Shown here one piece after another: positions 30,848-63,914 of a DNA stretch of 64,000 nt. The stretch lies in the NCBI RefSeq assembly GCF_027622855.1, contig NZ_JAPZVR010000001.1, positions 638,864 to 702,863 of the forward strand, in the 5' to 3' direction. The notes below the pieces were generated by a model, which searched no databases, was not told the origin of the DNA, and worked only from the letters and a program-made list of their open reading frames with translations. This DNA is from Glycomyces algeriensis. Its GTDB lineage: Bacteria; Actinomycetota; Actinomycetes; Mycobacteriales; Micromonosporaceae. Position numbers and translations under genes: made by a program. Position 1 is the first letter of the stretch, and the number at the start of each line of letters is the position of its first letter.

Positions 30848-30888
30848 AATCCTAGTAGTTCGATTAACTAGATCAAACTAGTAGGAAT
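30848..30888 (-). promoter_or_regulatory. Promoter and dyad operator of sulfonate ABC operon 1
   Basis: The 17-base arms 30848-30864 and 30872-30888 pair at 14 of 17 positions. On the minus strand TTGATC (30871-30876) and TAGGAT (30849-30854), 16 bases apart, form a promoter inside the dyad. TAGGAATTCT at 30882-30891 recurs exactly at 36626-36635, in the Rrf2-type site of the second operon. Inference: a degenerate site for the same regulator. Confidence 0.55.
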
Positions 30889-30930
30889 TCTAGGATCGGA
30901 AGTCTCGCGCGGGCAACCCGCGTCCCAGTA

Positions 30931-31047: not shown

Positions 31048-32415
31048 TCAGCGGGCGTGGGCGAGGACGCCCTTGACCGCGGATTCGAGGGCTTCGCGGC
31101 GCCGCGGGTTCTCCGGGCGCGCGAGGCCGTAGTGCTCACGCAAGGTGGTGCCGGTGTACTCGGTGCGGAAGCGCCCGCGCTCCTGGAGGATCGGGACCAC
31201 GCGGTCCACGAACGCCTCCAGGCCCGAGGGCAGGACGGCGGGCATGATGTTGAACCCGTCCGCCGCTCCGTCGTCGAACCACTCGAAGATCGCGTCGGCG
31301 ACCTGCTCGGGGGTGCCGCTGAAGGTGCGGTGGCCGCGCCCGCCCCCGAGGCGGCCGATCAGCTGCCGCACCGTGAGCCGCTCGCGCCGGGCGAGGTCCA
31401 CGATGAGCGTGAAGCGGCTCTTGGCGCCCTCGATGTCGTCCTCCGTGGGCAGGTTCGCGGGCAGCTCCCGCTCGAGGTCCAGCTCGGACGGGTCGAGCTT
31501 CAGCTGCTTCGCGAGGCTGCCCAGCGCGTACTCGGCGACGATGAGCCGGTCGAGCTCGGCCTCCAGTTCGCGGGCCTCGGCCTCGGTGTCGCCGATGACC
31601 GGCACGATCCCCGGCAGCACGAGCACCCCGTCGGGGTCGCGGCCGGCCGCCGCGGCCCGGCGCTTGATGTCGGCGTAGAACGCCTGCGCCTCCTGGAGGG
31701 TCTGCTGCGCGGTGAAGATCGCCTCGGCGTGGAGCGCCGCGAACGCCTTGCCGTCCTCAGAGGACCCGGCCTGCACGAGCAGCGGGTGCCCCTGCGGGGA
31801 GCGCGGCACGTTGAGCGCCCCGGCGACCTGGAAGTGCTCGCCCGCGTGGTCGGCGGGGTAGACCAGCTTCTCGTCGCCCCAGAGCCCGGTCTCCTTGTCG
31901 CCCAGGATCGCCGCGTCGTCCCAGGAGTCCCAGAGCTTCTTGGCGACCTGAAGGAACTCCTCGGCCCGGGCGTACCGCGAGGCGTGGTCGGGGAGTTCGG
32001 CGAGGTTGAAGTTGCGCGCGGCGTCGAGGGTCGCGGTGGTCACGATGTTCCATCCGGCCCGCCCGCCCGAGAGGTGGTCGACCGAGGCGAAGCGCCGCGC
32101 CAGGTTGTACGGCTCGTTGTACGTCGTGGACGCGGTGGCGATGAGTCCGATGTGCTCGGTCACGGCGGCGAGCGCCGCCAGGACCACCGTGGGCTCGAGC
32201 GACCCGGAGGGCCGGCGGCCGATGGTGCCCCACAGGGACGGCGAGTCCGCGAAGAACACCGAGTCGAGCTTTCCGCGCTCGGCGATCCGCGCGAGGTTCG
32301 CGTAGTGCGCGATCTTGGTGGAGGAGTGCGGGTCGGACTCGGGGAGCCGCCACGAGGCCTCGTGGTGGCCGGTGTTCATCAGGAACGCGTTGAGATGCAG
32401 TTGCCTCGTGCTCAT
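31048..32415 (-). CDS. Luciferase-like flavin monooxygenase, NtaA/SnaA/DszA family
   Basis: 455 residues, the length of the NtaA/SnaA/DszA/ScmK branch, longer than SsuD. Landmarks are HLNAFLMNTGHHEASWRLPE at the start, LDSVFFADSPSLWG, AGWNIVTTATLDAARNFN, and the end FNIMPAVLPSGLEAFVDRVV. Relatives use FMNH2 and oxygen to open C-S or C-N bonds, for example in sulfones or nitrilotriacetate. Here it follows an SsuABC-like importer and two flavin reductases, so desulfonation or sulfone cleavage is the likely task. The start overlaps the ATPase stop (ATGA). Confidence 0.9.
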   Translation of the reverse strand: MSTRQLHLNAFLMNTGHHEASWRLPESDPHSSTKIAHYANLARIAERGKLDSVFFADSPSLWGTIGRRPSGSLEPTVVLAALAAVTEHIGLIATASTTYNEPYNLARRFASVDHLSGGRAGWNIVTTATLDAARNFNLAELPDHASRYARAEEFLQVAKKLWDSWDDAAILGDKETGLWGDEKLVYPADHAGEHFQVAGALNVPRSPQGHPLLVQAGSSEDGKAFAALHAEAIFTAQQTLQEAQAFYADIKRRAAAAGRDPDGVLVLPGIVPVIGDTEAEARELEAELDRLIVAEYALGSLAKQLKLDPSELDLERELPANLPTEDDIEGAKSRFTLIVDLARRERLTVRQLIGRLGGGRGHRTFSGTPEQVADAIFEWFDDGAADGFNIMPAVLPSGLEAFVDRVVPILQERGRFRTEYTGTTLREHYGLARPENPRRREALESAVKGVLAHAR

Positions 32416-33176
32416 GCTTCCTCCTCTTTCTTGATCTCGGCGCCGCCGGCCAGGCCGAGTGCGGCGAGCAGTTCGGTGCGGACCTCGGCGAACCGCGGGT
32501 CCGACGGGTCGCGCGGTCCGTCGAGGTCGACGCGCCGCTCGGTGCGCACGTGCCCGGAGTCCAGGACGAGCACCCGGTCGGCGAGGACGATCGCCTCGTC
32601 GACGTCGTGGGTGACGAGCAGGACGGCGGGCTTGTGGCGCTCGTAGAGGGCACGCAGGAGCCCGTGCATCTTGATGCGGGTCAAGGCGTCCAGGGCCCCG
32701 AAGGGCTCGTCGGCCAGGAGCAGCTGGGGTTCGCGCACCAGCGAGCGGGCGAGCGCCACGCGCTGCTGCTCGCCGCCGGAGAGCTCGCGGGGCCAGGCCC
32801 GTTCGCGTCCGGCGAGCCCCACTTCGGCGAGGGCCTCGCGGCCCCGCGCCTTCGCGTTCGGGCCGTTGAGGCCGATCACGACGTTGCGCAGGACCCGCTG
32901 CCACGGCAGCAGCCGCGAGTCCTGGAAGACCACCGAGACCTGTTCGGGCACTTCGATGTCGCCGGTGCCCGAGGCATCCTGGTCGAGGCCCGCTAGGGCC
33001 CGCAGGAGCGTGGACTTGCCCGAGCCGGAGCGGCCCAGGAGGGCCACGAACTCGCCGGGTTCGATGGTCAGGTCGAGGCCGGACAGCACGGGGCGGTCGT
33101 CGGTGAAGGAGCGGTGGAGGCCGCTGATGCGCACCGCCGCGGTCGTGGCGGTCAGTCCTCCAGCGTGCGTCGCCAT
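32412..33176 (-). CDS. ABC importer ATPase, SsuB type (system 2)
   Basis: 254 residues. Walker A is LLGRSGSGKSTLLRALAG, the Q-loop VVFQDSRLLPWQ, the signature ELSGGEQQRVALARSLV, Walker B LLLADEPFGALDALTR, and the switch His is in LLVTHDVDEAI. The RLLPWQRV after the Q-loop is typical of aliphatic-sulfonate importers. It overlaps the permease gene by 25 bases and the monooxygenase gene by 4. Confidence 0.92.
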   Translation of the reverse strand: MATHAGGLTATTAAVRISGLHRSFTDDRPVLSGLDLTIEPGEFVALLGRSGSGKSTLLRALAGLDQDASGTGDIEVPEQVSVVFQDSRLLPWQRVLRNVVIGLNGPNAKARGREALAEVGLAGRERAWPRELSGGEQQRVALARSLVREPQLLLADEPFGALDALTRIKMHGLLRALYERHKPAVLLVTHDVDEAIVLADRVLVLDSGHVRTERRVDLDGPRDPSDPRFAEVRTELLAALGLAGGAEIKKEEEA

Positions 33177-34021
33177 GACAGAACCCTCCTCTGGACGATG
33201 CGGACGACGGTGTCGGAGACGAGCCCGAGCAGGGCGTAGAGGACCAGGCCGACGATGATGATGTCGGTCTGCCCGTAGGTGCCGGCCAGCAGCATCATGT
33301 AGCCGATGCCGCTGGTGGCGTTGACCTGCTCGACCACCACGAGGGACAGCCACGAGGAGGTCACGGCGAAGCGCATGCCCAGGAAGAACCCCGGGAGCGC
33401 GCCGGGCAGGACCACCCGGCCGAGGAAGGCCGCGTGGTTGAGCCGCAGCGTCTCGGCGAGCTCGGCGTAGCGCCCGTCGATCGAGCGCAGGCCGTTGTGG
33501 GTGTGGATGTAGATCGGGATGAGCACGCCGAGCGCGATCGTGATGATCTTCATCCGCTCGTCGATGCCGAACCACAGGAGCAGCAGCGGCAGCAGCGCGA
33601 GGTTCGGGATCGACCGCTTGATCTGCACCGGTCCGTCCACGACGGCCTCGCCCCAGCGGCTCAGCCCCGAGACGATCGCGAGCACGAGCCCGGCGAGCAC
33701 GCCGAACGTGAGCCCGAGCGCGAAGCGGCGGGCCGAGACGAGCAGGTCCGGTCCGAGCCGCCCGGACTCCCAGAGGTCCCAGGCGGTCTCGACCACGGTC
33801 CAAGGGGCCGTGAGGATGCGCGGGTCGATCCAGCCCTGCGCCGAGCCCCAGATCCAGACGCCCAGGAGCAGCAGCGGGCCGATGAGGTAGCCGAGCGGGA
33901 TCGACTTGCCCGGGCCGAGGCGGCGCTTGCCCCGCGGCCTGGAGGCGCGGCCGCTCGCCGCCTCGTCGTGCTTGAGCGGCGGCGGGGCGCCGCGCGCCGG
34001 CTTGGTCTCCACGGCGGTCAT
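33152..34021 (-). CDS. ABC importer permease, SsuC type (system 2)
   Basis: 289 residues. A basic N-terminal tail of about 40 residues precedes the first membrane segment GYLIGPLLLLGVWIWG. The conserved loop AETLRLNHAAFLGRVVLPGALPG contacts the ATPase. LLPLLLLWFGIDERMKI and SSWLSLVVVEQVNATSGIG are close to SsuC. The start overlaps the binding-protein stop (ATGA). Confidence 0.9.
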   Translation of the reverse strand: MTAVETKPARGAPPPLKHDEAASGRASRPRGKRRLGPGKSIPLGYLIGPLLLLGVWIWGSAQGWIDPRILTAPWTVVETAWDLWESGRLGPDLLVSARRFALGLTFGVLAGLVLAIVSGLSRWGEAVVDGPVQIKRSIPNLALLPLLLLWFGIDERMKIITIALGVLIPIYIHTHNGLRSIDGRYAELAETLRLNHAAFLGRVVLPGALPGFFLGMRFAVTSSWLSLVVVEQVNATSGIGYMMLLAGTYGQTDIIIVGLVLYALLGLVSDTVVRIVQRRVLSWRRTLED

Positions 34022-35082
34022 GACGCGCCCGCCTCTCCGTACTCGGCGATGCCCTCGTTCACGAGGTGCTCGAAGCGGCGGTCGTAGATCTCCTCGGCGT
34101 CGAAGACGTCGTTGCCGGTGCCGGCCGCGACGATCTCGATGGTCTCCTGGTGGCGCTCGATGGTCTCGTCCCAGTTCTCGGGGAAGTCCGGCTCGCCCTC
34201 GCGGTCGAACAGGTACTCGCCGTCCTCATAGGGCAGTCCCTCGTGGTCGACGTACCAGGCGTTGATCCACTCCTCGCGGTTCGCCCTGGTCCAGAGCTTC
34301 GCGGCGCCCCACAGGCGCACGTACTGCGCGATGGCGGCCGCTTTGTCCGCGTCCTCCAGGACCTCGATGGGCGCGTAGAGCGTCCACGGGTCGTCGCGCA
34401 GGCCGTGCGGGATCGCGGTGGCGCCGTCCGGGCCGTACTTGTTGATGTAGGAGCGCACCTGGGTGCCGCCGATCGGGGCGACGTCGACCTCGCCGCCGCC
34501 GAGGGCGTTCGAGTAGGTGTCGGCGGTGCTCGGCAGCTCCACGAGCTGCACGTCGTCCTGGCTCAGCCCGGCCGCGTCGAGCACCCGCAGGATCAGCGCG
34601 CCCTGCGCCTGCCCGGGGGAGTACGCGATCTTCTTGCCGGCCAGGTCCTCGATCGCCGCCACGTCCACGCCGGGGGCGACCCCGAGGTCGTAGATGGGGT
34701 GCGCGAGCGGGTCGGTGCGGCCCGCGGCGGCCACGATCTTCACCGGGAGGTTGGTCCAGGTCGCGTGGATCGGCGGGATGTCGGCGACCGAGGAGACGTC
34801 GAGGGACTTGGCGCGGAACGCCTCGGCGGACTTCGGCCCGCCCGAGATGTTGGCCCACTCGACGTCGAAGGTCAGGAGGCCCACCAGGCCCGACAGCTCG
34901 AAGGCGAGCTGCTGGACCGGGTCGCCGATGACGACCTTGGTCCCCTCGGGGACGGCGGTGGGCAGGGCGGCGTCGGCGGCGAGCACCGGGCCGCTCGGCT
35001 CCTCGGAGCAGGCGGTGAGCGCCAGCGCCGCGACGGCGGGCGCACCGGCTAGCAGGGTTCGGCGGGTTGCGTTGGAGGACAT
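34018..35082 (-). CDS. SsuA-like sulfonate-binding lipoprotein (system 2)
   Basis: 354 residues. A signal peptide with RR and hydrophobic core ends in a lipobox ALTACSEE (Cys near residue 25). The mature part has KVVIGDPVQQLAFELSGL, WANISGGPKSAEAFRAKSLD and YSPGQAQGALILRVL. It is clearly different in sequence from the system 1 binding protein, so the two importers probably take different sulfur compounds. It lies between a flavin reductase and the permease in one long minus-strand operon. Confidence 0.88.
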   Translation of the reverse strand: MSSNATRRTLLAGAPAVAALALTACSEEPSGPVLAADAALPTAVPEGTKVVIGDPVQQLAFELSGLVGLLTFDVEWANISGGPKSAEAFRAKSLDVSSVADIPPIHATWTNLPVKIVAAAGRTDPLAHPIYDLGVAPGVDVAAIEDLAGKKIAYSPGQAQGALILRVLDAAGLSQDDVQLVELPSTADTYSNALGGGEVDVAPIGGTQVRSYINKYGPDGATAIPHGLRDDPWTLYAPIEVLEDADKAAAIAQYVRLWGAAKLWTRANREEWINAWYVDHEGLPYEDGEYLFDREGEPDFPENWDETIERHQETIEIVAAGTGNDVFDAEEIYDRRFEHLVNEGIAEYGEAGAS

Positions 35083-35150: not shown

Positions 35151-35660
35151 TCATTCGAGCGGGGCGGCGGCGCAGTAGCCGCCCGCGTGGTACACCAGCG
35201 GTTCGTGGTCCCCGCCGGCCTCGGCGTCGACCACCAGGGCCAGGACCACGTGGTGGTCCCCGGCCTCGATGCGCTCGGTGACGACCGCGCGCAGGAACGA
35301 CGGGGCGTTGTCGAGCACCGGCTCGCCGGTCTCCAGCCGCGACCACAGGGTCGGCCCGCCGAAGCGGTCGATGCCGCTGGTGGCGAACCGGGTCGCGATC
35401 TCGTGCTGCGCGGCGGACAGGAAGTTGACGGTGAGGCTCTCGGCGTCCCGGACCGCCGGCCACGCGGACGAGCCGGTGGCGATCGCGAACGACACGAGCG
35501 GCGGGTCGATCGACACCGAGGTGAGCGAGGTGGCGGTGAACCCGGCCGGGCCGGACCCGGCGTCGGCGCACACCACGGTCACGCCCGCGGGGTGGGCCCG
35601 GAACAGGGACCTGAAGGACTCGGGGGCGACCCCCGCCGGGGCTGCGAGGCGCGCGCTCAT
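35151..35660 (-). CDS. Flavin reductase-family protein (HpaC/DszD type)
   Basis: 169 residues of the split-barrel flavin reductase domain. Conserved parts are FRSLFRAHPAGVTVVCAD, GFTATSLTSVSIDPPLVSFA, and ESLTVNFLSAAQHEIATRFA. Such proteins supply reduced FMN to two-component monooxygenases, here the enzyme at 31048. The ATG at 35660 overlaps the preceding stop (ATGA). A second, unrelated reductase precedes it, so the operon encodes two FMN reductases of different folds. Confidence 0.9.
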   Translation of the reverse strand: MSARLAAPAGVAPESFRSLFRAHPAGVTVVCADAGSGPAGFTATSLTSVSIDPPLVSFAIATGSSAWPAVRDAESLTVNFLSAAQHEIATRFATSGIDRFGGPTLWSRLETGEPVLDNAPSFLRAVVTERIEAGDHHVVLALVVDAEAGGDHEPLVYHAGGYCAAAPLE

Positions 35661-36202
35661 GCTGCCGCTCCGACCGGCTTGCGGCCCAGGCCGAGTGCGG
35701 CCTCCAGGGCCGGGGCGTGCGCCTCGGTCCAGGCGCCGATGTGCTCGGGGAGGGCCGGCAGCTCACTCTCGCGCAGCGCCAGCGACGGCACCGGCAGGCT
35801 CGCGCCGAGCTCGGCCAGGACCGGCCGCAGCTGCAGGTCGGCGAGGAATCGGTGCTCGGCCGAGGCCGCGATGGTGACCGGCACGGCCAGGACCCCTTCG
35901 AGGGCCCGCGGGGCGAGCTGGTCGAGGAACAGCTTGAGCAGACCGGTGTAGCTGGCCTTGTAGACGGGCGTGCCCACGATGAGCACGTTCGCGGTGTGCA
36001 CCTGGGTGGCGGCGTGCTCGAACCCGTCGTGCGGGGGCTCGATGCCGTCCAGGTACAGCTCGGCGAGGTCGATGGAGGCGGCGCGCGGTTCGGCCCGGAG
36101 CTCGGAGCCGATGGCCGCGGCGAGCGCCTCGGCGGTGGTGAGGGTGCGGGAGAGTCGCTTCGGATTGCCGACCACAGTGGTCAGTGAGATGGCGGCGGTC
36201 AC
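35657..36202 (-). CDS. NADPH-dependent FMN reductase, SsuE/MsuE type
   Basis: 181 residues with the flavodoxin-like fold: VVGNPKRLSRTLTTAEALAA at the start, VLIVGTPVYKASYTGLLKLF near residue 75, and PVTIAASAEHRFLADLQLRP. SsuE-type enzymes feed FMNH2 to alkanesulfonate monooxygenases. GTG 36202 follows AAGGA by seven bases. A 143-base gap with a small hairpin, then the palindromic element and the leader peptide, lie upstream. Confidence 0.9.
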   Translation of the reverse strand: MTAAISLTTVVGNPKRLSRTLTTAEALAAAIGSELRAEPRAASIDLAELYLDGIEPPHDGFEHAATQVHTANVLIVGTPVYKASYTGLLKLFLDQLAPRALEGVLAVPVTIAASAEHRFLADLQLRPVLAELGASLPVPSLALRESELPALPEHIGAWTEAHAPALEAALGLGRKPVGAAA

Positions 36203-36233
36203 GGTGGTGTCCTTACAGGTGAGATGGGCGAAG

Positions 36234-36254
36234 GCACGCCGCTGGAGGGCGTGC
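36234..36254 (-). promoter_or_regulatory. Small hairpin in the untranslated region before the FMN reductase
   Basis: GCACGCC (36234-36240) pairs perfectly with GGCGTGC (36248-36254) around seven bases. It lies 32 bases before the GTG start and could be part of an attenuation structure linked to the leader peptide. Confidence 0.4.
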
Positions 36255-36344
36255 GGGGATGCGGGCATGGAAGGGCCCGTGGGGATTCGCAGGAGGAGGG
36301 TGATCGAGCGCAGCCTGGGACGCCTGCCCGCTAGGGGCTGCGCT

Positions 36345-36511
36345 TTAGGGCCTGTCCCGCGGATCAGACCGGTCGTTATCCGGCCCGTTTGCCCGCTCGC
36401 TTCGTTGTCGGCCCTCCAGATACAACACCGGTATCTGGAGGGCCTTCCGCCTTGCGAGCGAACAAACGGACTCGGATACCGCCGCTCCCTGATCCGCGGG
36501 ACAGGCCCTAA
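36345..36511. mobile_element. Palindromic miniature element, copy 1
   Basis: The ends are perfect inverted repeats of at least 20 bp inside TA (GGGCCTGTCCCGCGGATCAG with its complement). Inner segments also pair, up to an apical hairpin around 36413-36445. A diverged copy lies at 62558-62756. No open frame is present, so it is MITE- or REP-like. A TA at each end would fit an IS630-type target duplication. It separates the leader peptide from sulfonate operon 2, and its terminal TAG is the leader's stop codon. Confidence 0.75.
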
Positions 36512-36591
36512 CACATTCGCAGACACAGTGCGCTGGCGGCGCGCATCTGGTCGATTTCGCGCCGCCGTGTGAGGAACTCGGCGGTCGTCAT
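36508..36591 (-). CDS. Cysteine-ending leader peptide of sulfonate operon 2
   Basis: 27 residues: MTTAEFLTRRREIDQMRAAS then ALCLRMC. The core LTRRRxIDxxRxASALC matches the short leader peptides found before sulfur-assimilation genes in actinomycetes, where Cys codons near the end sense cysteinyl-tRNA supply. Two Cys codons, the last sense codon among them, lie at the end. A -10-like GATAGT (36601-36606, minus strand) is nine bases upstream and no ribosome binding site is seen, so translation may be leaderless. The stop TAG is the first three bases of the palindromic element. Too short for usual gene finders. Confidence 0.72.
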   Translation of the reverse strand: MTTAEFLTRRREIDQMRAASALCLRMC

Positions 36592-36609
36592 ACGGAGAAC
36601 ACTATCAGT

Positions 36610-36632
36610 ATTCCTATAGAAATACTAGGAAT
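36610..36632. promoter_or_regulatory. Rrf2-type site 1 (sulfonate operon 2 leader)
   Basis: Perfect arms ATTCCTA and TAGGAAT are separated by nine bases. The site overlaps the -35/spacer region of the leader-peptide promoter and starts three bases past the stop of the upstream winged-helix gene. It shares CCTA-N9-TAGG with sites 2 and 3. Confidence 0.7.
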
Positions 36633-36634
36633 TC

Positions 36635-37210
36635 TTAGATGGTGAGAAGCCGGTCTGCGGCGGGCGAGGCCGCGCCGGTCCGGTACTCCACGTCGCGGCT
36701 GCGGGTGAACCGGTAGCCGACGCCGCGCACGGTGCCCACGAGCTCGTCGAACTCCCCGAGCTTGGATCGCAGGCGCCGCACGTGGACGTCGACGGTGCGG
36801 CCGGGGATGCCGGTGTCCGGTGTCTCCCAGACGTACTGCAGGAGTTCGGCCCGGGTGTGGACCATCCCGGGGTACCGCGCCAGGAACGCCAGGAGCTCGA
36901 ACTCCAAGCGGGTCAGGGCGATCGACTCGCCGCGCACGAGCACTTCGCGGCCGGGCACGTCGATGAGGAGCGCGGGGGGCGACTGCGGCGCGCTCGGCGC
37001 CGCGAGCGCGGCCGGGCTCTCGGGCGCGGCGGGCGCGCCCTCGGAGGCGACCGAGATGCGGCCGCCGCTCTGGGAGAGCACGCCGAGGGCGGCGGTGAGC
37101 CGCCTTGCGAGGCGGGGGTCGTCGGCCGGGATCTCGATGGTGACGGTGATCGTCGCGAGTCCGTTGCGGCGGTGGACGGGAGGGCGGGTGTGGGTCTGGA
37201 CGGGAGTCAT
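36635..37210 (-). CDS. Orphan winged-helix (OmpR/PhoB-type) regulator without receiver domain
   Basis: 191 residues. The C-terminal half is a complete Trans_reg_C domain: LTRLEFELLAFLARYPGMVH, RAELLQYVW, GRTVDVHVRRLRSKLGE and VRGVGYRF. The N-terminal 75 residues are not a receiver: a short basic start, a beta-like ITVTIEIPADD segment and an Ala/Pro linker. It therefore cannot be controlled by a histidine kinase in the usual way. It is the first gene on the strand leading to the leader peptide and sulfonate operon 2, and is probably one of its regulators. Confidence 0.85.
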   Translation of the reverse strand: MTPVQTHTRPPVHRRNGLATITVTIEIPADDPRLARRLTAALGVLSQSGGRISVASEGAPAAPESPAALAAPSAPQSPPALLIDVPGREVLVRGESIALTRLEFELLAFLARYPGMVHTRAELLQYVWETPDTGIPGRTVDVHVRRLRSKLGEFDELVGTVRGVGYRFTRSRDVEYRTGAASPAADRLLTI

Positions 37211-37518
37211 GGCGTCGCCTTCGGGTTCGGGTTCGAATGGAGTACCGGAGCGGGCGACGCCAAGGGCGCGGTGCTCGGAGGCCTTGCGGCTAGCGAGCGT
37301 GACCGGCGCCGACGGTGCCGCCCGGGCGACACAGGGCCGAGTTCGAGCGGGAGAAGTCGATGTGGCGGCGCTTGGTCCGCCTCGACTCCGCCCCAGGCGC
37401 CGTTCCGGGCGCTGCGCCTTCGCTGCTGTGGTTCACCATGACAGCATATCCTATCTATCAAGTAGGATTCAAGTCCACGTTCCGTTCTGCCCCAGAACCC
37501 ATGAAGGGAGCCTGGCTC
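37211..37518. other. Gene-free control region between the winged-helix and Rrf2 genes
   Basis: 308 bases with no supported gene separate two divergent regulators. The right half carries the Rrf2-type site at 37448-37468. The left half has no repeat or promoter I can support. Confidence 0.6.
37448..37468. promoter_or_regulatory. Rrf2-type site 2 (autoregulation)
   Basis: ATCCTA and TAGGAT are perfect arms with nine bases between. The site lies 50 bases before the ATG of the Rrf2 gene, so the regulator probably controls itself. Confidence 0.7.
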
Positions 37519-37974
37519 ATGCAGGTCTCCGCACGCGGCGAGTACGCCGTCCGCATCGCACTCACCCTGGCCGCCGAGCATCCGCGCACCATCTCGGCCA
37601 GCACCCTCGCGTCCGCTCAGGGCCTGCCCCGCAAGTTCGCCGAGGTGATCCTCGGGGACCTGCGGCGGGCCCACCTGGTCGCGAGCGCCCGCGGGGTCGA
37701 GGGCGGCTACCGGCTCGCCCGCGGGCCGGAGCGGATATCGGTGGGGGAGGTGCTCCGCGCCGTCGACGGCCCGCTCGCCGAGGTGCGCGGGCGCCGGCCC
37801 GAGGAGACGAGTTACGAAGGGGCTGCGGTGAACCTGCCGCGGCTGTGGGTCGCCGCCCGCGCCGCGGTGCGCTCGGTGCTCGACGAGGTCTCGCTGGAGC
37901 AGGCCGCCAGCGGCGAGTTCCCGGTCCGTGTCGCGGAATTGACAGACGAGGAGGGCGCCTGGGCGCCCCGCTGA
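37519..37974 (+). CDS. Cysteine-free Rrf2-family regulator (CymR-like)
   Basis: 151 residues. The N-terminus MQVSARGEYAVRIALTLAAE and the helix-turn-helix ISASTLASAQGLPRKFAEVI, with the wing VASARGVEGGYRLARGPE, define the Rrf2 family. There is no cysteine at all, so it cannot bind the Fe-S cluster of IscR, NsrR or RsrR. CymR, the cysteine-metabolism repressor, also lacks a cluster. AAGGGAG eight bases before ATG 37519 fixes the start. The sulfur genes around it and three matching palindromes make it the likely regulator of the island. Confidence 0.88.
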   Translation: MQVSARGEYAVRIALTLAAEHPRTISASTLASAQGLPRKFAEVILGDLRRAHLVASARGVEGGYRLARGPERISVGEVLRAVDGPLAEVRGRRPEETSYEGAAVNLPRLWVAARAAVRSVLDEVSLEQAASGEFPVRVAELTDEEGAWAPR

Positions 37975-62557: not shown

Positions 62558-62756
62558 TAGGGCCTGTCCTGTGAATCAGACCGGTCGTTATCCGGCCCAT
62601 TCGCCCGCTCGCTGCGTTGTCGGGGCCTTCGCATACAACACCGGTATGCAAAGGCCCCTCCGCGGTCTCGGCGAAGCTTGCGAGCCGTCAATTGGCACTG
62701 CGAGCGAACGAATGGACTCGGATACCGCCGCTCCCTGATTCACAGGACAGGCCCTA
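62558..62756. mobile_element. Palindromic miniature element, copy 2
   Basis: 199 bases with perfect 20 bp terminal inverted repeats (GGGCCTGTCCTGTGAATCAG with its complement) inside TA. It matches copy 1 at 36345-36511 but carries about 32 extra bases in the right half. Three positions in the outer stem and several inside differ between copies, each with a compensating change on the other arm. The apical hairpin is CATAC-N7-GTATG. The minus-strand TAG at 62756-62754 is the stop codon of the aminotransferase gene. Confidence 0.78.
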
Positions 62757-63914
62757 GGCCAGGCCCGCGCCCAGCCGCCGGAGGCCCTCCTCGATGACGT
62801 CGAGGCGCTTGCAGAACGCGAACCGCACCTCCGGGCGCGGCGCCTGGTCGAGGTAGAACACCTGATTCGGGATGGCGACGACCCCGCACCGCTCGGGCAG
62901 TTCCAGGCAGAACGCCAGGCCGTCCGCGTACCCGAAGGGGGCGGCGCTCGCGGTCACGAAGTAGGTGCCCTCCGGTTCGTGCACGTCGAACCCGATGCCC
63001 TTGAGCCCGGCCACCATGAGGTCGCGCCGCTCCTGGTAGCCCGCCGCGTAGTCCCGGTAGAACCCGTCGCCGGAGGCGAGCGCGGCCGCGATGCCGTACT
63101 GGAACGGGGTCCCGGACGCGAACGACAGCCACTGCTTGACGTCCTTGACCCGGGCGACCAGCTCGGCGGGGCCGGTCGCCCAGCCGATCTTCCAGCCGGT
63201 GACCGAGAACGTCTTCCCGGCCGACCCGACGGTGACCGTGCGGTCCCACATGCCCGGGAGGGTCGCGAGCGGCACGTGCTCGCGGCCGTCGAAGACCAGG
63301 TGCTCGTACACCTCGTCGGTGACGGCGATGAGGTCATGTGCAATGGCGACGGCCGCGATCGCGGCCAGCTCGCCGCGGTCCAGCACGGTGCCCGTGGGGT
63401 TGTGCGGCGAGTTGACCAGCAGCACCTTGGTGCGCTCGGTGACGGCGGCGGCGAGCCGGTCCTTGTCGAGCCGCCAGTGCCCCGCGCCGCCCGCAGGGGC
63501 CTCGAGCCGCACCGGCACCAGCGTCCCGCCCGCCATGGCGACGGCGGCCTTGTAGGAGTCGTAGCTCGGTTCGAGCGCGATCACCTCGTCGCCGGGGCCG
63601 ACGAAGGCGAGGATCGCCGCGGTGAGCGCCTCGGTGGCCCCGGCGGTGACCGTGACGCCCTCGTCCGGGTCCGGCGCGAGTCCGTACCAGTGCCGCTGGT
63701 GCGCCGCGATCGCCTGGCGCAGTTCAGGAATGCCGGCGACCGGCGGATACTGGTTGTGCCCGTCGCGCATGGCGGCCGCGGCGGCTTCGATGACATATGC
63801 GGGCCCGGACTCGTCAGGGAAGCCCTGGCCGAGGTTCACCGCGCCGTGGCGCAGCGCGAGCGCCGACATGGTGGTGAAGATCGTGGTCTGGGGCCGCCGG
63901 CCGGGTCCGCTCAT
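62754..63914 (-). CDS. Class I/II PLP-dependent aminotransferase
   Basis: 386 residues of aminotransferase fold type I, close to the methionine/kynurenine (YbdL) and actinobacterial DapC-like group. Features are NLGQGFPDESGPAYVIEAAA and NQYPPVAGIPELRQAIA near the start, NSPHNPTGTVLDRGEL, VTDEVYEHLVFDG and the PLP-binding Lys in GSAGKTFSVTGWKIGW. PEVRFAFCKR carries the carboxylate-binding Arg. N-succinyl-diaminopimelate or methionine are possible substrates. GGAGG precedes the ATG. Its TAG stop is the end of palindromic element copy 2. Confidence 0.9.
   Translation of the reverse strand: MSGPGRRPQTTIFTTMSALALRHGAVNLGQGFPDESGPAYVIEAAAAAMRDGHNQYPPVAGIPELRQAIAAHQRHWYGLAPDPDEGVTVTAGATEALTAAILAFVGPGDEVIALEPSYDSYKAAVAMAGGTLVPVRLEAPAGGAGHWRLDKDRLAAAVTERTKVLLVNSPHNPTGTVLDRGELAAIAAVAIAHDLIAVTDEVYEHLVFDGREHVPLATLPGMWDRTVTVGSAGKTFSVTGWKIGWATGPAELVARVKDVKQWLSFASGTPFQYGIAAALASGDGFYRDYAAGYQERRDLMVAGLKGIGFDVHEPEGTYFVTASAAPFGYADGLAFCLELPERCGVVAIPNQVFYLDQAPRPEVRFAFCKRLDVIEEGLRRLGAGLA

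Follow-up and report, generated by a model that had tools for sequence, protein, structure and literature searches.

In the 64,000-nucleotide stretch of DNA from Glycomyces algeriensis analysed here (the window), a mobile element appears to sit in the stop of a conserved leader peptide, probably one that senses cysteine; it leaves the peptide untouched and parts the leader stop from the hairpin that adjoins it in the nearest relatives. The reading that we favour, and consider likely, is that a miniature inverted-repeat element (MITE), whose movement presumably depended on an IS5-family transposase, hit the CTAG at the leader stop, that leader length was kept, that the native hairpin was likely uncoupled from the terminating ribosome and that the site was set by the target choice of the element. 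The locus is hence a natural case in which a leader stop is separated from its hairpin by a mobile element, with the peptide unchanged and element-free relatives available, and it provides a natural test for an influence of the distance between stop and hairpin on cysteine attenuation.

The operon downstream of the leader lies on the minus strand and begins with a gene for an NADPH-dependent FMN reductase (SsuE-like; 35657–36202), which has a GTG start after AAGGA at 36214–36210. Family search identified the following genes as those for a flavin reductase (35151–35660), a substrate-binding protein (SsuA/NMT1-like; 34018–35082), an ABC permease (SsuC-like; 33152–34021) and, at the end, an FMN-dependent monooxygenase of the NtaA/DmoA family (31048–32511, approximate start codon); family search was likewise the basis for the FMN reductase, and an ABC ATPase gene (32412–33191, approximate start codon) completes the set. 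Judged by these families, the gene set would be that expected for sulfonate-sulfur use, and all operon genes are intact ORFs on reading. Upstream lies the leader ORF (36511–36591, minus strand; 27 codons, MTTAEFLTRRREIDQMRAASALCLRMC), recognised through ORF reading and its presence in relatives and followed by the stop TAG at 36508–36510; the preliminary description had given the same 27-codon frame and stop, and our reading confirmed both. The comparison rests on 13 relatives: a search with the FMN reductase matched 19 of 22 genomes of the genus (three were without match), 14 of them strongly with the own genome included, and five genomes with weak matches only (G005, G012, G015, G016 and G021; E 2e-5 to 1e-3) were left out. 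All 13 relatives carry the orthologous operon and have kept the leader, and the cysteine of its SALC/SAIC motif is found in every one of their leaders. The two cysteines of the C-terminal CLRMC pointed out earlier fared differently in this comparison: the SALC/SAIC cysteine is general (13/13), while the last one (codon TGT) occurs in the window only, the final residue in the relatives being Arg in 11 and Leu and Ser in the other two; the leader of L015 has extra cysteine farther upstream in the peptide and none at the last codon. With regard to known leaders, the peptide resembles the NCBIfam family NF042934 ('putative leader peptide', cis_reg_atten) in a match over residues 6–23 (E 0.004), in the SALC motif and in its place before a sulfur-type operon, and departs from it in scoring 16.8 bits against a curated cut-off of 27, a value reached nowhere in a genome-wide search of the own genome. 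Since the family at a loose threshold also matches 10 of 14 control genomes, the family match alone is weak; we regard the leader as probably a conserved one of cysteine-sensing type, in keeping with the earlier proposal that a leader of cysteine type precedes sulfur genes here.

None of the 13 relatives contains the element, and all have CTAG at the leader stop, in the context CGCTAG in 11, CTCTAG in L014 and AGCTAG in L017. The three nearest relatives (L010, L011 and L012) read CGAATGCGC TAG AGCGCAGC, that is CGC TAG and then AGCGCAGC, whereas the window reads CGAATGTGT TA-element-TA A AGCGCAGCC; the bases beside the site differ (CGC in the relatives versus TGT in the window, and G versus A), and the original third stop base is now found at 36345. 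As CTAG is present at the leader stop in all of the element-free relatives, the stop existed before the insertion and its TA was the target, which contradicts the idea of a stop codon brought in by the element. In the TAG of the window, TA is target DNA and G is the first base of the element: the overlap of stop and element described earlier is thus real at the boundary, but not for all three bases, since the TA belongs to the duplicated target. Judging from this comparison, the element contributes only the G that re-forms TAG, with the length of the leader unchanged. The alignment with element-free relatives, which the preliminary description had suggested, made the original stop and the adjoining hairpin visible and found the leader ORF conserved in the absence of the element throughout (13/13).

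The element proper spans 36348–36508 (no strand assigned; 161 bp, GGGCCTGTCC...GGACAGGCCC) and is flanked by TA at 36346–36347, the distal copy of the target duplication, and by the proximal copy at 36509–36510; the 165 bp given previously is correct when both TA are counted (36346–36510), but not as the size of the element itself. Its outer arms are perfect over 23 nt (36345–36367 and 36489–36511), its inner arms (36385–36423 and 36431–36469) are 77% complementary, and RNA folding predicts that it self-folds at -132.6 kcal/mol. We found 49 matches in the own genome, with partial ones and both strands counted, which correspond to about 35 further full or partial copies besides that of the window (36 places examined, window included); of the 21 other genomes of the genus, 20 gave matches as well. 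Full copies read TAGGGCCTGTCC...GGACAGGCCCTA. These matches, together with the TA on both sides, bear out the mobile palindrome proposed to lie directly behind the leader. Short, without a transposase gene, and exhibiting inverted terminal repeats, dispersed copies, a TA duplication and an empty site in relatives, the element is by these sequence features a MITE. A further full copy of the family (62558–62756, 199 bp with both TA) is seated at the TAG with which an aminotransferase-like gene (62754–63914) ends.

In order to describe the target, full elements were deduplicated by their flanks, with up to 3 mismatches tolerated in the ends; the contig scan for elements gave at least 118 stretches, and all 118 were taken into the computations. 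The 97 distinct full elements among the matches listed have, with strands merged, the outer flank context CTAG in 54 cases, CTAA in 20, CTAC in 13, TTAA in 4 and others in 6. The window element is one of the four TTAA cases: it has T and A as outer flanks in place of C and G, and the exact target at insertion is hence inferred from the relatives. In a comparison of 96 elements, the outer base was off consensus at 52 positions and the inner base followed it at none of these, which rules out a 4-bp CTAG duplication: the inner G and C are independent of the outer bases, so that the duplication is confined to TA and the element proper has a length of 161 bp. On this comparison, the element duplicates TA and prefers CTAG.

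The IS427 group has TA/CTAG as its target. The MITE shares its terminal repeats with one element that carries an IS5-type transposase, that of locus L208, in which the transposase (NF033580, E 1.7e-81; PF13340) lies between ends matching the 21-base pattern without mismatch; this element is a single case of 1603 bp and has another ORF besides the transposase, while the MITE is much shorter and has no transposase. Thus, the element resembles IS5-family MITEs and was presumably mobilised by an IS5-family transposase, and we call it IS427-like from the length of its duplication only, as most elements of this group in the accessible part of a table in PMC3281130 have a 2-bp duplication, and one has 4 bp. 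In the own genome, a draft of 34 contigs, no transposase gene with the ends of the element was found. Several candidates for an autonomous partner were discarded: two DUF4096 loci of the own genome lack these ends, an end-like pair at C4:38645–40407 (own genome, 1.76 kb apart) and the loci L124 and L217 revealed no recognisable transposase when their frames were read by eye, and the single ends seen in the genus (L093, L098, L099 and L100) included no full-length element, L100 being a 60-bp copy. L181 holds transposase-like frames and is a candidate autonomous element.

The position of the window element is a common one for its family. Among the 97 full elements of the matches listed, 55 have the stop TAG of a predicted gene as their boundary (61 ends, with 6 elements so placed at both); in two cases a gene stops within an element, and none of the elements is internal to a predicted gene; other CTAG sites in the same loci (n=121) comprise 31 stops, 83 intergenic sites and 7 sites in genes. 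The difference in stop seating gives a Fisher p of 3.7e-6, which is nominal given that the loci are not independent, being related and in part taken from a single genome. Genes were called by codon usage with a simple program that had 7 window ORFs as its training set and a 60-aa limit, and the leader of the window, below this limit, is outside the 55. At 54 of the 61 ends, G or A follows the distal TA and the empty site would read as a stop too; given that purines are favoured at this place of the target, the count speaks only weakly against truncation. Stronger evidence comes from two genes of the own genome that end at the same, or almost the same, residue in element-free relatives. The membrane-protein gene of L251 (FUSC-like by reading) carries an element at its stop that is found there in none of 21 relatives, with a CTAG stop at a similar C-terminus in 10 of them and different ends in the other 11. 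The aminotransferase of the window (62754–63914, named by reading) has an element at its stop in none of the 20 relatives compared (locus L250 and one further match were left out), and its last ten residues are the same as in L233, which uses TGA. CTAG occurs at 20 sites in the window versus 166 expected from base frequencies, and these sites comprise 4 predicted gene stops, 13 intergenic sites and 3 sites in genes. Four of the window sites are clustered at 30852–30890, and in L032, L115, L162, L174, L185 and L202 both ends of the element form the stops of two convergent predicted genes. Taken together, this indicates that, in genomes in which the target CTAG is rare, stop codons serve as insertion sites for elements with these ends. 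As stop seating is common and CTAG rare, a leader ending in CGCTAG is an ordinary target; a special association with cysteine leaders is ruled out, as only one of the 97 full elements among the matches listed lies behind such a leader, and no special link to leaders is needed. The window locus is, from the sites compared, an instance of a stop-codon-seated MITE that chanced on a regulatory leader.

What the insertion has displaced can be seen from the nearest relatives, in which a hairpin AGCGCAGC(C)...(G)GCTGCGCT follows directly after the stop. It survives in the window behind the element (AGCGCAGCC...GGCTGCGCT, 36307–36344, minus strand), 163 nt from the stop instead of 0; the attenuator region has thus not been filled or replaced, as had been suggested, but is intact and moved away to 36344–36307. 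Within the untranslated region, the stop-abutting stem ranks 1, 20, 1, 1, 51, 2, 1, 165, 118, 29, 66, 1 and 24 in L010 to L022 (among 116 to 185 positions), i.e. first in 5 of 13 relatives, second in one and at ranks 20 to 165 in seven. Once the leader is counted in, it comes first in no relative (best rank 3 of 326), because the leader has strong stems itself. The sequence of this stem varies by group (AGCGCAGCC/GGCTGCGCT; TCGGG/CCCGA; CGTCCGGTCCCGC/GCGGGGCCGGACG) with its position constant, and in L013 and L015, in which the leader is longer after the cysteine, stop and hairpin shift jointly: this suggests that the native hairpin is read by the terminating ribosome. The native untranslated region (36203–36344, minus strand) is C-rich, with a C/G of 2.03, and could be a Rho-type attenuator. 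C-richness is general to the 14 loci (C/G 1.54–2.03), with 13 of them above the 95th percentile (1.57) and 6 above the 99th (1.84) of 140-nt windows from both strands of the 64-kb window. A scan of 36100–36800 for intrinsic terminators (hairpin and U run) found none, and a search of the entire window against Rfam at gathering thresholds gave no match. With a C-rich region and no intrinsic terminator, a Rho-type or translational mechanism of attenuation appears more likely than a classical terminator.

In the reading that we favour, the MITE inserted in the CTAG holding the stop codon of the conserved cysteine-type leader, with the TA duplicated and the first base of the element re-forming TAG, so that, as comparison with the relatives shows, peptide length is unchanged. 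At the empty site, a ribosome finishing the leader would cover the 5' arm of the hairpin, and with a ribosome stalled at the cysteine codon of SALC the hairpin would be free to form. The element separates the stop from the native hairpin by 163 nt of RNA that is predicted to fold on itself with great stability; over this distance the terminating ribosome could no longer cover the hairpin, which would then most likely form whatever the position of the ribosome. Hence the hairpin has likely lost its coupling to the terminating ribosome, and the response of the operon to cysteine would be altered or weakened with its parts intact, the insertion site being the result of target choice and not of selection for a leader.

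RNA folding leaves room for a milder outcome, which we hold to be possible if clearly less probable, namely that the insertion is neutral and the element loops out as its own hairpin with the original attenuation unchanged. The element RNA is predicted to fold on itself, with a pair probability of the native stem of 0.84–0.96 beside it (0.93–1.0 in a model of the empty site) and a near equal accessibility of the downstream Shine-Dalgarno sequence with and without the element, which fits a neutral insertion; both arms of the native stem are present, and divergence of the untranslated region is not accelerated. However, in the nearest relatives stop codon and hairpin adjoin each other, and in the window the stop is predicted to sit within the base of another stem, that of the element.

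We consider it unlikely that the hairpin of the element has been recruited as a new attenuator, in which the position of the ribosome at the cysteine codons sets whether the base of the stop-abutting stem opens. The stem does begin at the stop, as the native hairpin does in the nearest relatives, and the second, window-specific cysteine codon lies directly before it; against this, the terminator scan of 36100–36800 found no terminator-like U run and the native hairpin is still present, and since the same ends are also seated in the stops of ordinary genes, position alone is no evidence for recruitment. Equally doubtful is a broader proposal in which CTAG-seeking actinobacterial MITEs colonise TAG stops as a safe harbour, because the first base of the element re-forms TAG and leaves the protein unchanged, and in which at a regulatory leader the stop would come to lie inside a giant hairpin, turning the cysteine attenuator into a new switch.

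Silencing of the operon through polarity or RNA processing, with subsequent decay, we regard as improbable. Such an effect could be expected from a hairpin of this stability (-132.6 kcal/mol) between leader and first gene, and the leader ORF is indeed somewhat more diverged (85–90% identity to the three nearest relatives, versus 94–100% among these), but the operon ORFs are intact and the FMN reductase gene shows 85–87% DNA identity to the relatives compared to 85% among them. The untranslated region likewise has 66–72% identity to the three nearest relatives, which share 64–72.5%: as both divergences are the same as among relatives, there is no sign of decay there, and a region that has not decayed faster than in element-free relatives argues mildly against loss of function. 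That the element made a new stop and cut short a longer leader, as the TAG common to leader and element might suggest, is scarcely credible and refuted by the relatives, since all 13 element-free ones stop at TAG, with leaders of 27–36 codons in 12 of them and 58 in L015.

Parallels exist in other systems. Cysteine-responsive leaderless uORFs are known from mycobacteria (Canestrari et al. 2020, as cited in the accessible part of PMC13236596), and conserved candidates for cysteine uORFs in mycobacteria are described in PMC4633059, likewise accessible in part. As far as these sources go, the leader of the window is alike in being a short cysteine uORF before sulfur genes, and possibly in being leaderless, but differs in that the mycobacterial uORFs have a cysteine cluster and it has one conserved cysteine, with a hairpin at the stop in several relatives. 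QMITE2 of Coxiella is, according to the accessible part of PMC5896051, a MITE that resides for the most part in 3' untranslated regions and between genes, and one of its insertions, at the 3' end of a gene, directly follows a stop codon; its duplications, however, are variable with 7–11 nt, and that stop arose from an indel and not from a TA target (PMC5896051). Among titles and abstract openings, with subscription papers largely out of reach, we found no report of MITEs behind leader peptides or in stop codons, and no papers on leader peptide, attenuator and miniature inverted-repeat jointly or on MITEs in Glycomyces.

Upstream of the leader, a -10-like GATAGT spotted by eye lies 9 nt before the ATG, which means that the leader transcript may be leaderless; a sigma-70-type promoter scan of 36100–36800 found none. 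The putative promoter region is overlaid by a palindrome read from the sequence (ATTCCTAGTATTTCTATAGGAAT, 36610–36632, minus strand), ATTCCTA...TAGGAAT, which could have a regulatory function and is largely conserved among relatives. A similar palindrome, ATCCTA...TAGGAT, is found at 37448–37468 before a second leader, and a divergent gene encodes an Rrf2-family regulator (ORF 37315–37974, plus strand) that may bind the two palindromes. This second SALC leader (MVNHSSEGAAPGTAPGAESRRTKRRHIDFSRSNSALCRPGGTVGAGHAR, 37290–37439, minus strand) likewise ends in CGCTAG and precedes a gene for a winged-helix regulator (36635–37210), so that two cysteine-type leaders stand in series. In the genome search with the leader family, the top two matches, L219 and L220, departed from the leader motif used. 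Elsewhere in the own genome, L223 (G000 C30:223858; MQPANAFAQRREVDQMRVASALCR, stop TGA) is a third candidate for a leader of SALC type.
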